From Actinokineospora baliensis (GTDB lineage Bacteria; Actinomycetota; Actinomycetes; Mycobacteriales; Pseudonocardiaceae): a stretch of 64,000 nucleotides of DNA. The notes beneath the pieces are model-generated. The model was not told the DNA's origin. It searched no databases and saw only the letters and a program-made list of their open reading frames with translations. Shown here piece after piece: positions 1 through 56,733 of this stretch. The stretch covers positions 3,382,501 through 3,446,500 of the forward strand of contig NZ_JAFBCK010000001.1 in assembly GCF_016907695.1 (NCBI RefSeq). The letters are read 5' to 3'. Numbering within the stretch: position 1 is the stretch's first letter; each line of letters opens with the position of its first letter. Both the position numbers and the translations under genes were made by a program.

Positions 1-2841
<2,841 letters not shown>

Positions 2842-2953
2842 AGAGGCTACGCATCCACTGTACGGTGTCTGAGACACCAACCACCCCACCAGGGGCAGAC
2901 CACACGGTACAAGTGTGGGCGCCTAGGTGGGTTGAGGTTGATTGTTTCATAGT

Positions 2954-3070
2954 GTTTCGGCGGTCATAGCGGTGGGGAAACGCCCGGTCCCATTCCGAAC
3001 CCGGAAGCTAAGCCCACCTGCGCCGATGGTACTGCACTCGTGAGGGTGTGGGAGAGTAGGACGCCGCCGG
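2954..3070 (+). rRNA. rrf: 5S ribosomal RNA
   Basis: A segment of about 117 nt begins GTTTCGGCGGTCATAGCGG, contains the diagnostic CCCGGTCCCATTCCGAACCC and GAAGCTAAGCCC blocks, and ends in GTAGGACGCCGCCGGAC, which pairs with the 5' end to form helix I. It lies about 110 nt after 23S, the usual actinobacterial order. Ends are good to a few nt. Confidence 0.95.
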
Positions 3071-3080
3071 ACAATCATTC

Positions 3081-52329: not shown

Positions 52330-52629
52330 GTGCCCAGCATCGCCGGTCGCCACCGCCGACTCCAGCGGGAAAACGACATCATGCTCGTCCGCGCTGCGCC
52401 GCCCGGGTGGCAGGTGCCCCCGGAATACCCTTTTGGCCCAGCGGAACACCATTTCCGGCTACCGAACGTGCGGAACTTCGGCCCGTTCCTGGAATTCCGC
52501 CACAACCATTGTCGGTGGTGGACTTGGGAAACGGATCGCGGGTTTGTCGCTGGATCGTGTCGCGGTCGACGGGAATGGGTAACGGGGCCCGCCGGGGTCA
52601 CGATGCCTTCTCGAACGAAAGGAGACGCG

Positions 52630-53937
52630 GTGACCCGAGAACAGGTGCTGCTGGTGCACCCGGGAATCTACGACGAGGGCAATCCGCTCGCGTTCCCGCC
52701 GTGGGGCGCGATCACGATCGGGCACGCCGTGCGCGCCGCCGGGCACGACGCGCGGGTGCTCGACCTCAACGGCGCCGACCCCGCCGCCCACCTCGACGCC
52801 GCGCTCGCCGCGCAGCGGCCCACCGTCGTCGGGGTGACCGCCAAGCAGGGCGTGGCCGCCCGCCGGTTCCGCGCCGTGGTCGACCACCTCGCCAGGGTCG
52901 CTCCGGACATCCCCGTCGTCGCCGGTGGACCGCTGGTCAGCACGTTCCCCGACCCCAGGGCGCTGATCTGGACCGGCGTGCACACCCTGGTGCTCGGCGA
53001 CGGCGAGCAGGCGATGGTGTCCTGGCTGGCGCGCCGCCCGCGCCCCGGCGGGCTCGTGCACGGCGCCGAACCGCCCACCCTCGACGACGTCGGGCTGCCG
53101 TCGTGGTGGCCGGGGCTGGCCGACTACGTGCACCCGGCGAGCAGCTGGCCGAACATGGCCGTTCCGGGAATCCACGTGGCGTCGGCGCGCGGCTGCACCA
53201 GGCGCTGCACCTTCTGCTACCTCAACGCGCAGTACCCGAACGCGCGGTTCCGCTACGTCTCCGCCGGGAAACTGCACGACGACCTGGTGGAACTGAACGC
53301 GGTGACCGGCGCCCGCGGATTCTACTTCGTCGACGACTGTTTCATCGACGCCCGGCAACGGCGGGTTCGCGACTTCTGCGCCCGCGCGATCACCCACGGC
53401 GGCGGATTCCGCTTCGGCTGCGACGTCCAGTTGTCCGATCTCGACCGGTATCCCGACCTGCTCGCGCTCATGCACCGCGCGGGCTTCCGCGCCCTTTATG
53501 TCGGGATCGAGTCCGCCTCGGCGCGGACCAGGACCCGGTTGGCCAAGGGGCGGCTGCGCGGCGAGATCACCGACGTGCTCAACCGCGCGATCGACCTCGG
53601 GTTCGTGCTGCGCGCCTCGATCGGCATCGGCTGGCCGGGTGAGGACGCCGCCGACGCCCGCGCCACCCTGGACCTGATCGACGCGGTGCCCCGGCTGGCC
53701 TTCGACGCGTTCCGCTACTACCCGCTGCCGCACACCCCGCTCGGCGAGCTCTCGCACTGGGCCCGCGCCCGCAACCGGATGAGCCCGGTCGAGGTGTCGG
53801 CGACGGCGCTGCAGGACTACTCCGACCACAACGACAACCACTCCGCGATCCCCACCGCCGACTACGAGGCGCTGTGGACCCAGTTGCGCCACCGCGAGGA
53901 CGAGCGCCTCGCCGCCTACTTCGCCACCGAGCGCTGA
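52630..53937 (+). CDS. B12-binding-type radical SAM enzyme
   Basis: 435 aa from GTG 52630, after AAAGGAGA. An N-terminal cobalamin-binding-like Rossmann domain (residues ~1-160: EQVLLVHPGIYDEGNPLAFP; GHAVRAAGHDARVLDLNG; VVAGGPLVSTFP) precedes a radical SAM domain with the CxxxCxxC cluster in SARGCTRRCTFCYLN, then FYFVDDCFIDARQ and YVGIESASARTRTRLAKG. Such enzymes methylate or rearrange unactivated carbons in natural-product pathways. It heads a three-gene run with an ATP-grasp/decarboxylase fusion and a transglutaminase-like protein. Substrate unknown. Confidence 0.9.
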   Translation: MTREQVLLVHPGIYDEGNPLAFPPWGAITIGHAVRAAGHDARVLDLNGADPAAHLDAALAAQRPTVVGVTAKQGVAARRFRAVVDHLARVAPDIPVVAGGPLVSTFPDPRALIWTGVHTLVLGDGEQAMVSWLARRPRPGGLVHGAEPPTLDDVGLPSWWPGLADYVHPASSWPNMAVPGIHVASARGCTRRCTFCYLNAQYPNARFRYVSAGKLHDDLVELNAVTGARGFYFVDDCFIDARQRRVRDFCARAITHGGGFRFGCDVQLSDLDRYPDLLALMHRAGFRALYVGIESASARTRTRLAKGRLRGEITDVLNRAIDLGFVLRASIGIGWPGEDAADARATLDLIDAVPRLAFDAFRYYPLPHTPLGELSHWARARNRMSPVEVSATALQDYSDHNDNHSAIPTADYEALWTQLRHREDERLAAYFATER

Positions 53938-53948
53938 AGGGGACACCG

Positions 53949-56189
53949 GTGTCGACCACCCCCACCGTCGTGCTGTCCGGCGTGCACTCCGGCCCCAACC
54001 CCTCACCCGGCCTCGGCCTGGCCAGGTCGCTGCGGCTGGCCTGGCCCCGGCTGCGGCTGGAGGCGCTGGACTACTCGCCGCGCTCGACCGGGCTCAGCGC
54101 CTCGGAGTTCGACCGCACGCACATCCGCCCCGGCTGGCACACCGCCGACCTCGGCGCGCTGTGCACGGGCCTGGTGTCGATCGTGGAGTCGACCGGCGCG
54201 GTCTTCCTGCCGGGGCTGGACCTGGAGGCCGCGCTGCTCGCCGAGCGCGTCCCCGGCCACCCGGCGCTGCTGCTGCCGCCCGCCGCCGCGTTCGACGTGG
54301 TCGCCAAGCCGGGGGAGACCGCCGCGTCGCTGCTGGGCCTCGCGGTGCCGGAGCACCGCTTCGCCGAGGGCGTCGAGGACGCCGCGGACTTCGCCGCCAG
54401 GCACGGGTGGCGGATCTGGGTCAAGGGACCGCGCTACGAGGCCGTCGCCGCCACCACCCGCGCCGAGTTGGCCGCCGCGCTCGAGCGGGTGCGCGCCACC
54501 TGGGGCGCGGAGTGCCTGCTGCAACGGCACGTCGCGGGCACCGAGGAGTCGGTGGTGTTCGCCGCGCTCGACGGTGAGCTGCTCGGCGCCTGCGCGATGC
54601 GCAAGACGATGGTCACCAGCGAGGGCAAGACCTGGGCGGGCGCGGTCGACCACCTCGACCACGCCACCCGCGCCCGGTTGATCGACCTCGTCCGGGTGAC
54701 CAGGTGGACCGGCGGCGGTGAGGTCGAGTTCGTCCGCGAGACCGACACCGGGATCCCCTACCTGCTGGAGGTCAACCCGAGGTTCCCGGCCTGGATCCAC
54801 GGCGCCACCCTGGCCGGGGTCAACCTGCCCGCCCGGCTCGTCGCCGCCGCGACCGGCATCCCCCGCGGCGAACGGGAGAAGGCGCACTCCACCGGGTTCG
54901 TCCGGGTCGTCGAGGAGATCCCGGCGGGCCCGCACGCCACCGGTGCCGTCCCGCTGGCCCACCGCGTCGTCGCCTCGGAACCCGCCGCGCTCGGCAAGCA
55001 CCCGTCCGGCATGCCGGTGCTCTCCCGCAGGCTCACCCCGGCCCGACCGCGGCCGAGACCCACCCCCGTCGACCCGGTCCGCGCCGCCGACATCGCCGCC
55101 GCGCTGGTGGTCGACCCGTACGAGTCGCCAGCCAGGGTCCTGTTCGGCGGGGTGCTCGACCGGGGCCTCGACCGGCTCGCCGCGGTGTGCCGCGACGTCG
55201 AGGACGCCACCGGCGTGCCGACCCGGTTCGCCTACTCGGTCAAGACCAACCCGGACCCCAGGGTGCTCGACGCGGTGCTGCGCCGGGGCGCGCTGGTCGA
55301 GGCGATCTCGCAGGCCGAGGCCCGCCGCTGCGCCGAGGCCGGGTTCCCCGGCGACCGGGTGGTGCTCGGCGGCCCGGCGAAGTGGTGGCGCTTCGACGGC
55401 GGCCCGGTCAAGTTCGGCGCGGTGTTCTGCGACTCGGTCACCGACCTGGAGCGCACCGTCGACCTGCTCGCCCAGGGCGCGGTGTACGCCGACGTGGTCG
55501 GTCTTCGTCTGGCCCCGCCCACGGTCGCCTCCCGCTTCGGCGTCGACCTCACCTGCCCGCGCGCCTACCGGCGCGTCGCCGAGGTGCTGCGCGCCGCCCC
55601 CCTCGGCCGCATCGGGCTCCAGTTCCACCACGCCGCCAGCCAGATCGGGCTGCGCGCCTGGCTGCGCGAGTACACCGCGGCGATCACCGTCGCCGCCGAT
55701 CTGCTCGCCCGCGTCGACGTCCGAGCCCGCTGCGTCGACCTCGGCGGCGGCTGGCCACCCGGCCTCTCGCGCGCGGAGCTGGGCAGCCAGCTGACCAGGG
55801 CGAGCCGGGTGGCGGTGCGCGAACTCGGCTCGCTGGACCAGGTGCTGTTCGAACCGGGCAAGTACCTGGTCGAGCGGGCGATGGCGGTGTTCACCACCGT
55901 GCTCGACGTCCGCGACGGCACGCACGGGCGCGCCGCGGTGGTCGACGCCTCGATCGCCGAACTGCCCGACTGGGTGTCGCACCCGCACCCGGTGCTGTGG
56001 CGGGCCCCCGGAGCCGGTTGGCGCAGGTTGCCCGCCGGGGACGAGTCGGTCCTCGGTCGGCTGTGCATGGAGCACGACCGGCCGCGCGCCGGAATCACCC
56101 TGCCCGAGGGCATCGCCCCGGGCGACCACCTGCTGTTCCTCGACGCGGGCGCCTACGACGCCAGCATGAGCTACCGGTTCGGAGTGTGA
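53949..56189 (+). CDS. ATP-grasp ligase fused to a PLP-dependent (fold III) decarboxylase
   Basis: 746 aa from GTG 53949 (GAAGGGGA upstream). Residues ~1-330: ATP-grasp of PylC/carboxylate-amine-ligase type (RIWVKGPRYEAV, LLQRHVAGTEESVVF, metal motif LLEVNPRFPAWIHG). Residues ~380-746: DapDC/ODC-type decarboxylase with Schiff-base Lys in FAYSVKTNPDP, FHHAASQIGL, GGWPPGLS, LFEPGKYLVERA, catalytic Cys in GRLCMEHD and the end LFLDAGAYDASMSYRF. Both halves look catalytically complete. It may join an amino acid to a carboxylate and decarboxylate it; substrate and order are unknown. Twelve nt from the radical SAM gene. Confidence 0.88.
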   Translation: MSTTPTVVLSGVHSGPNPSPGLGLARSLRLAWPRLRLEALDYSPRSTGLSASEFDRTHIRPGWHTADLGALCTGLVSIVESTGAVFLPGLDLEAALLAERVPGHPALLLPPAAAFDVVAKPGETAASLLGLAVPEHRFAEGVEDAADFAARHGWRIWVKGPRYEAVAATTRAELAAALERVRATWGAECLLQRHVAGTEESVVFAALDGELLGACAMRKTMVTSEGKTWAGAVDHLDHATRARLIDLVRVTRWTGGGEVEFVRETDTGIPYLLEVNPRFPAWIHGATLAGVNLPARLVAAATGIPRGEREKAHSTGFVRVVEEIPAGPHATGAVPLAHRVVASEPAALGKHPSGMPVLSRRLTPARPRPRPTPVDPVRAADIAAALVVDPYESPARVLFGGVLDRGLDRLAAVCRDVEDATGVPTRFAYSVKTNPDPRVLDAVLRRGALVEAISQAEARRCAEAGFPGDRVVLGGPAKWWRFDGGPVKFGAVFCDSVTDLERTVDLLAQGAVYADVVGLRLAPPTVASRFGVDLTCPRAYRRVAEVLRAAPLGRIGLQFHHAASQIGLRAWLREYTAAITVAADLLARVDVRARCVDLGGGWPPGLSRAELGSQLTRASRVAVRELGSLDQVLFEPGKYLVERAMAVFTTVLDVRDGTHGRAAVVDASIAELPDWVSHPHPVLWRAPGAGWRRLPAGDESVLGRLCMEHDRPRAGITLPEGIAPGDHLLFLDAGAYDASMSYRFGV

Positions 56190-56190
56190 G

Positions 56191-56733
56191 ATGACCCGAC
56201 CAGGCCACCCGCCGCGGGCGAAGGTGCCCGACCAACCGCCGTCCACCCTGACCGAGCACCCGGACTGCGTCGCCTGCGCCGACACCAGGTCCTGGCTGCT
56301 GGCCCACGACCGCGCCGAGGCGACCCCGGCCCGCGAGTGGGACACCACCACGTTCGGGCTGGGCTGGCTGTTCCGCTACTTCCGCTGGGGGCCCAGCCGC
56401 TGGCCGTTCGCCTGGTGCGACGTGCCGGGCGCAGCGCACCTGGACTGCGGCGTGCTCGCCTGCGTCGCGGGCATGGTGCTCACCGCGCGCGGGCTGCGCG
56501 TCGAACGGGTCCAACTGGTCGAGCGGGCCGCGGTGGAGGAGACGGCGCTGTGGCGGGCGAGGTGGCGCGCGGCGGGGTGCCCGCACGACTGGATCCTGTC
56601 CGACCGCGAGGTCTACCACGAGGTCCTGCTGGTGCACGCCGAGCAGGAGCCGGTGCTGTTCGACCCCACCGAGCTGCGCCAGGTCGGCCAGGGCCGCGAC
56701 CGTCCACTGTGGATGCGTCAATGGGTGTGGTGA
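56191..56733 (+). CDS. Transglutaminase-like cysteine protein, probable third gene of the cluster
   Basis: 180 aa starting one nt after the preceding stop. A Cys-His-Asp set of transglutaminase-like order can be read: HLDCGVLACVAGMVL (Cys), EVYHEVLLVHAEQEPVLFDPTEL (His, then Asp-Pro-Thr), in outline. Two further cysteines (PDCVACADT) near the N-terminus could bind metal. It has no membrane segment. The assignment to the fold is tentative; it may cyclise, transfer or hydrolyse the product of the two upstream enzymes. An iterated palindrome lies at 56703. Confidence 0.7.
   Translation: MTRPGHPPRAKVPDQPPSTLTEHPDCVACADTRSWLLAHDRAEATPAREWDTTTFGLGWLFRYFRWGPSRWPFAWCDVPGAAHLDCGVLACVAGMVLTARGLRVERVQLVERAAVEETALWRARWRAAGCPHDWILSDREVYHEVLLVHAEQEPVLFDPTELRQVGQGRDRPLWMRQWVW

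Follow-up and report, generated by a model that had tools for sequence, protein, structure and literature searches.

A radical SAM gene beside an ATP-grasp/PLP-decarboxylase fusion and its transglutaminase-like partner in Actinokineospora baliensis: a candidate module for a small acylated amine

The window, a stretch of 64,000 nucleotides from the 7.68 Mb, one-contig genome of Actinokineospora baliensis, carries three genes on its plus strand spanning positions 52630 to 56733, which encode a B12-binding radical SAM protein, a fusion of an ATP-grasp domain with a predicted PLP-dependent decarboxylase, and a small transglutaminase-like protein, as shown in Table 1. All three were found where the initial annotation had placed them, and of the gaps of 12 and 1 nt that it had given, the second was right (fusion to transglutaminase-like gene, 1 nt) and the first is 11 nt. 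A ribosome-binding-like aaaggaga lies just 5' of the radical SAM start, and the leader separating this gene from a divergent neighbour, Ada/AlkA-looking in our reading of the sequence, contains the motif GGGTAAC about 50 nt 5' of the start in all seven aligned leaders (the window and six congeners), which may represent a promoter or operator. The downstream neighbours encode a DJ-1/PfpI-AraC regulator, a GDSL hydrolase and a zinc alcohol dehydrogenase. Ribosomal RNA, comprising a 23S cut at its 5' side and a 5S, was also observed at the beginning of the window, fitting the lower G+C of its first 4 kb.

Table 1. Features of the locus, in window coordinates
Feature	Position	Strand	Size	Remarks
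Ribosomal RNA, 23S (5' cut) and 5S	1-3072			
Ada/AlkA-looking gene	start 52452	-		Upstream; our reading of the sequence
Leader	52453..52629	+		Separates the radical SAM gene from its divergent Ada/AlkA-looking neighbour
GGGTAAC motif	52577-52583			Possible promoter or operator
Radical SAM gene, B12-binding	52630..53937	+	435 aa	GTG 52630 to TGA 53937
CxxxCxxC motif	53194-53217			Within the radical SAM gene
ATP-grasp/PLP-decarboxylase fusion	53949..56189	+	746 aa	GTG 53949 to TGA 56189
ATP-grasp half	53949..54953	+	residues 1-335	Predicted ligase
Alanine-racemase-fold PLP decarboxylase half	55044..56186	+	residues 366-746	Predicted decarboxylase
Codon of Lys432	55242-55244			PLP lysine
Codon of Cys706	56064-56066			Putative catalytic cysteine
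Transglutaminase-core-like gene	56191..56733	+	180 aa	ATG 56191
Codon of Cys86	56446-56448			Member of the proposed triad

Against their congeners, dN/dS ranged from 0.18 to 0.37 for the radical SAM gene (six compared), from 0.19 to 0.48 for the fusion (seven compared) and from 0.08 to 0.44 for the transglutaminase-like gene (five compared), with no internal stops in any of them; values of 0.08 to 0.48 over 18 comparisons, together with the lack of internal stops, indicate that the three genes are real and constrained.

The radical SAM protein matched the Pfam families Radical_SAM (PF04055, 50.9 bits, cut-off 29.5) and B12-binding (PF02310, 51.6 bits, cut-off 32.1), and the three cysteines of its CxxxCxxC motif (Cys199, Cys203 and Cys206 in P0001 numbering, counted from base 52600) are invariant in 36 aligned sequences. 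Among 8000 candidates scored, 53 proteins formed its orthologue group (E≤1.3e-72), the next match standing at 3.6e-15, and the group displays an invariant DDC at residues 245-247. By sequence profile the radical SAM core, and partly the B12-binding part, matched the B12-dependent enzymes 9ccb (the best, E 4e-15), OxsB, NocN and TokK, as well as AprD4. Unlike these known B12-dependent enzymes, the window protein falls below every NCBIfam cut-off: the best score was that of the RiPP enzyme ApyD (85 bits, far under its cut-off of 750), and the C- or P-methyltransferase families (ApyD, PhpK, HpnR, KedN5 and others) were all far below. The reaction of B12 radical SAM families is often a C-methylation.

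The fusion yielded 424 matches at E≤0.001 among 8000 candidates scored, the best 120 of which (the window's own included) cover 92% or more of the query, with identities of 36-100%, and carry source names such as several actinobacteria, Chthoniobacterales, Pyrinomonadaceae, Syntrophomonadaceae, a Pseudomonas and a Bathyarchaeia archaeon. The residue counts that follow refer to these best 120 of 424 and include the decayed Actinokineospora inagensis protein (P0009), which was also kept in alignment A1; the structure, the profile run against the PDB and the list of invariant residues were derived from alignment A3, 60 of the 120 without P0009. The N-terminal half matched Pfam ATPgrasp_Ter (PF15632, 36.7 bits, cut-off 29.1), a domain found at E≤0.01 in 25 of 25 fusion domain sequences, and it retains E258, E260, N276 and R278 in 120/120 fusions; the domain match and the conserved metal and ATP residues mark it as a predicted ATP-grasp ligase. 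Its sequence-profile matches in the PDB are weak (best E 0.0019), and the fold matches of the whole fusion, among those listed, fall on the decarboxylase half. The latter half matched Orn_Arg_deC_N (PF02784, 45.2 bits, cut-off 23.4), with Orn_DAP_Arg_deC (PF00278) at 20.1 bits under its cut-off of 23. The PLP lysine Lys432, the stacking His560, the putative catalytic Cys706, Asp710 and Tyr736 are kept in 119 of the 120 fusions, Glu635 and Gly637 in all 120, and Lys638 in 111. On its domain match, PLP lysine, stacking histidine and catalytic cysteine, this half can be placed among the alanine-racemase-fold PLP decarboxylases. The motifs of the set are intact, as had been read from the sequence itself.

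Cys706 is followed by Met707, Glu708 and Asp710, the methionine being present in 119/120 of these best fusions, and the resulting loop CMEHD differs from the CESGD of diaminopimelate decarboxylase and the CTPED of BtrK and resembles the CMQHD of N-citrylornithine decarboxylase. The fusion family profile built from 60 sequences likewise placed N-citrylornithine decarboxylase first among PDB sequences (E 7.5e-44, 153 bits), followed by diaminopimelate decarboxylase (1.4e-33) and BtrK (3.6e-33), with two antizyme inhibitor sequences lower in the list.

The third protein matched no family in Pfam and NCBIfam scans. It showed a soft fold match to the transglutaminase type, with the pseudomurein endoisopeptidase PeiP as the best, and across 49 relatives Cys86 and His143 are invariant and Asp158 is kept in at least 90%; on these grounds it was assigned as transglutaminase-like, with Cys86-His143-Asp158 as a proposed triad in the order of the transglutaminase-core superfamily. 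The nearest described enzymes for comparison are those of the transglutaminase core, TGase, TglA, PeiP/PeiW, the GdmF amide synthase and arylamine N-acetyltransferase. A protein-database search with this sequence returned only six relatives, by a method that needs shared exact words.

Seventy-eight fusion loci were assembled (76 came from scanning named genomes, to which the window and a Streptomyces plasmid were added), spanning nine phyla by source assignment, which may be wrong for MAG loci such as those of Spirochaetia and Kiritimatiellae; L033/L034 and L065/L066 are near-copies, and L089 and L090, which are contigs of the same MAG, each contain one end of a single protein. A transglutaminase-like gene lies directly downstream of the fusion at 68/78 loci, a count taken from 337 ORFs ending just 3' of the fusion, and a search of all ORFs recovered these genes again, along with artefacts from other frames that overlap the fusion. 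The ten remaining loci are of different kinds: in four (L049, L076, L086, L089) the contig ends no more than 36 bases from the fusion; two are from Actinokineospora and keep the radical SAM gene and a full-length fusion without the transglutaminase-like gene (L026, L030); and in L084, L091, L094 and L097 tblastn for this gene found nothing significant. The fusion matches of L091, L094 and also L056 are split over two ORFs, and that of L097 covers only the decarboxylase half. In 8 of 26 loci tested out of the 68, an ATG of the second gene overlaps the fusion end by exactly 20 nt, giving a picture of translational coupling. The conserved unit is the fusion with the transglutaminase-like gene, not the three-gene set. 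In an even draw of 396 genomes across the phylum, neither the fusion nor the radical SAM protein reached E≤1e-50 outside the window's own genome.

A radical SAM gene stands beside the fusion at 10/78 loci, which were found via the fusion, so that counts of adjacency outside the 200 relatives carry a bias; as stop-to-stop fusion ORFs overlap it in L022, L024 and the window, the radical SAM gene was counted from the all-ORF search. The initial annotation had described enzyme types that rarely meet, which holds for the radical SAM enzyme and fails for the fusion and the transglutaminase-like gene, which are usually together. Within Actinokineospora a tighter pattern was observed: among 16 genomes, including the window's own, the fusion occurs in eight, the radical SAM gene in seven and the transglutaminase-like gene in six, both of the latter being absent from all eight fusion-less genomes, and the radical SAM gene lies within about 55 bases of the fusion in all seven genomes having both. 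Outside the genus the three genes occur together in Nocardioides potassii, Mycobacterium sp. 236(2023) and a Spirochaetia MAG, where the order is fusion, transglutaminase-like gene, radical SAM gene, unlike that of Actinokineospora. The outcome named in the initial annotation as a refutation, that relatives would not conserve the three genes together, was thus not seen outright; two congeners (L026 and L030) have the radical SAM gene and the fusion without the transglutaminase-like gene. No clean empty site was found in six of the eight fusion-less congeners, in which an alkA-ogt-looking pair is present, the set does not occur within about 9 kb, and the other flank differs too.

The only fusion-bearing congener without the radical SAM gene, A. 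inagensis (G008; L028:10001-12121), retains the transglutaminase-like gene (dN/dS 0.26 against the window) and a fusion in which the PLP Lys432, His560 and Cys706 are replaced, as are the ATP-grasp residues Lys219 and Lys227, with E258, N276 and Lys159 retained. This fusion match has no internal stop codon, and its dN/dS against the window (0.37) is not above that of some intact fusions (0.40 to 0.48), so the decay may be recent. The coincidence of radical SAM loss with a degraded fusion supports a shared module. Overall, the evidence supports the three genes forming one biosynthetic unit, and in this lineage the radical SAM enzyme very probably works in the same pathway as the core pair.

Elsewhere other genes take the place beside the fusion. 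Oxygenase-like genes were observed at 24 loci, urea-transporter-family genes at 16, the radical SAM gene at 10 and desaturase-like genes at three, together 53/78 loci; no locus has two of these four partners, and 25 have none, 11 of them with less than 1 kb on one side. On a quick tree of 69 fusions the partner labels are clustered (14 changes, compared with 38 when shuffled), so that the mutual exclusion may only reflect common descent. The oxygenase-like family, of about 220 aa (e.g., L043:7924-8583), was found in Acidobacteriota, Verrucomicrobiota and Alphaproteobacteria as 31 stretches in the 24 loci, doubled in some, and in the 17 stretches aligned H125-x-D127, H175 and R188 are invariant. 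It had no Pfam match, and a PDB sequence search gave nothing of note (best E 0.33); from its residues we would guess a 2-oxoglutarate oxygenase, and the HxD...H...R pattern is perhaps that of an undescribed oxygenase family. TauD-type genes also lie within 1.8 kb of the fusion in three loci. The urea-transporter-family genes (e.g., L064:12884-13831; L062:12572-13822; L057:12719-13813), with PF03253 above its cut-off in three of three tested, occur in Streptomyces, Collimonas, Pseudomonas, a Chloroflexi MAG, Bdellovibrionota and a proteobacterial MAG, and perhaps hint at transport of a small, neutral compound, an amide or something urea-like. The desaturase-like gene of three Streptomyces loci, annotated as a fatty acid desaturase in the Streptomyces plasmid, scored 25.7 bits in Pfam, below the cut-off of 29.7, in the one tested. 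On the opposite strand near the fusion, a small protein that looks to us like a papain or C39 peptidase was noted in L064 (9391-9843) and six more loci, mostly of Bdellovibrionota; the one tested reached no Pfam cut-off.

As to the chemistry, PMC7857480 describes, for rhizoferrin (FigA/FigC, also FslA/FslC) and for SbnH of staphyloferrin B, acylation of a side-chain amine followed by decarboxylation with an alanine-racemase-fold PLP enzyme; it further describes that basic-amino-acid decarboxylases have an acid beside the catalytic cysteine, gripping the side-chain amine, and, in section 8, that this acid, which contacts the amino group on the side chain of the substrate, is replaced by methionine. 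Met707 likewise occupies the position at which an acid would grip a free side-chain amine, which suggests that in the fusion, too, acylation would precede decarboxylation. Judging from its family, the ATP-grasp half would activate a carboxylic acid with ATP and form an amide with an amino acid at its side chain, so that the alpha-amine and the alpha-carboxylate stay free; the PLP half, by its active site and the family-profile match, would then strip the alpha-carboxylate of the acylated amino acid, giving an N-acyl diamine or a similar amide derived from an amino acid by decarboxylation. The Cys86-His143-Asp158 protein might transfer the acyl unit to another acceptor, or hydrolyse it, and in this lineage the B12 radical SAM enzyme would modify an unactivated carbon, with other partners in other lineages. 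That the core performs this acylate-then-decarboxylate chemistry appears to us about evenly balanced, and a biosynthetic module for a small acylated amine is a plausible reading of the gene set with much the same standing. The single pathway with ligation and decarboxylation proposed in the initial annotation survives in so far as both steps are predicted within one protein that has a radical SAM partner, and not as a conserved three-gene unit.

The comparison with the siderophore enzymes has its limits. As with FigC, the best PDB match of the fusion profile, the active-site loop carries the common Cys-Met pair; unlike rhizoferrin and staphyloferrin B, where the ligase is a separate NIS synthetase, the ATP-grasp domain is here fused to the decarboxylase. 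A Pfam scan of the three proteins for an NIS-type pathway listed ATP-grasp and no IucA/IucC, and unlike FigC/FslC the fusion reaches only 39.7 bits against the FslC model (NF041039, cut-off 500), the window's sequence taken singly being nearer to diaminopimelate decarboxylase. The fungal E-64 cluster, as described in PMC12568646, comprises four genes (Cp1A-D) for an Fe(II)/2-oxoglutarate oxygenase, a Pfam-less protein, which we infer to be an ATP-grasp ligase, a PLP decarboxylase and an adenylate-forming amide synthetase; it differs from the window set in being fungal, in a decarboxylase that is dispensable in a heterologous host, and in that the word 'fusion' does not occur in that text. In the open-licence PMC literature, judged from titles and the beginnings of abstracts, no description of the fusion or of the set was found, in line with the earlier statement that it is not recognised from a described natural product. 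The enzyme logic has precedents in rhizoferrin and staphyloferrin B; the novelty lies in the fusion to an ATP-grasp domain, the transglutaminase-like gene that usually goes with it, and a third enzyme that can be exchanged.

In butirosin biosynthesis BtrJ is an ATP-grasp ligase, BtrK a PLP decarboxylase and BtrH a cysteine acyltransferase, acting on a carrier-bound substrate. The same combination of ligase, decarboxylase and cysteine acyltransferase logic could be read into the present set, in which the ATP-grasp half would attach glutamate or aspartate, via the carboxylate of its side chain, to the thiol of a carrier or to a small amine, the PLP half would make a GABA- or beta-alanine-type unit, and the transglutaminase-like protein would pass it to an acceptor. 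The Btr proteins are separate, unlike the fusion; the family profile favours N-citrylornithine decarboxylase, which has the same methionine, over the BtrK type (153 against 118 bits); and no carrier gene was noticed beside the window set, nor any recurring one on inspection of the neighbour clusters listed, from which ORFs below 70 aa were excluded, so that this reading is rather unlikely. Less probable again is a peptide-modifying pathway, whose substrate would be a small gene-encoded peptide that the ATP-grasp half extends by further residues, or that the transglutaminase-like protein cleaves or cross-links, and that the radical SAM enzyme modifies; the ApyD score and the PeiP fold match speak for it, whereas the gaps of the operon leave no space for a peptide gene, no conserved reading frame was apparent by eye in the gapped leader alignment of seven genomes, and no small gene recurs among the same neighbour clusters.

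The fusion might also be a decarboxylase of a free, diaminopimelate-like amino acid whose ATP-grasp domain serves a separate role. Diaminopimelate decarboxylase, the name given in some source databases, comes first in the single-sequence, NCBIfam and fold comparisons, and it was nevertheless dropped as the function on the LysA model (TIGR01048, 65.3 bits, cut-off 297.9) and on the methionine, not an acid, beside the cysteine; the fusion is, moreover, patchy in the genus and rare in the phylum, unlike lysine biosynthesis, and we regard this reading as very improbable. The idea that the radical SAM gene is an unrelated neighbour of a pathway made by the two-gene core only, for which its few loci speak, as does a fusion-bearing genome of the host's own order (G172) with the core pair and no radical SAM gene, is held to be equally improbable, given its association with the fusion in four lineages and two gene orders, its presence in seven of eight fusion-bearing and none of eight fusion-less genomes of the genus, the sharp score gap of its orthologue group, and the 14/53 orthologues that apparently, by eye, share a genome with one of the best 120 of 424 fusions. 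That the PLP half is a racemase, an epimerase or another enzyme of the alanine-racemase fold, a family that does include racemases, is scarcely credible for a half predicted to be a decarboxylase, in which the active-site set from His560 to Tyr736 is conserved and whose nearest folds, among those listed, and nearest sequences are decarboxylases.

Returning to the acylate-then-decarboxylate reading, its full form is put forward tentatively, as less likely than not: a carrier-free, multi-phylum module in which the fusion acylates and then decarboxylates, the transglutaminase-like protein transfers, and lineage-specific partners (B12 radical SAM, oxygenase-like or desaturase-like) finish an undescribed family of amides, some of them moved by urea-transporter-family proteins. 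If this is true, a chemistry known from a few siderophores would here be contained within one fused enzyme and its usual partner, and it would occur in actinobacteria, acidobacteria, verrucomicrobia, proteobacteria and bdellovibrios, a small-molecule class of common soil and water bacteria that would have been missed, its genes being labelled diaminopimelate decarboxylase or hypothetical protein. An answer on one fusion would bear on the others, up to 424 matches, the best 120 of which are near full length.
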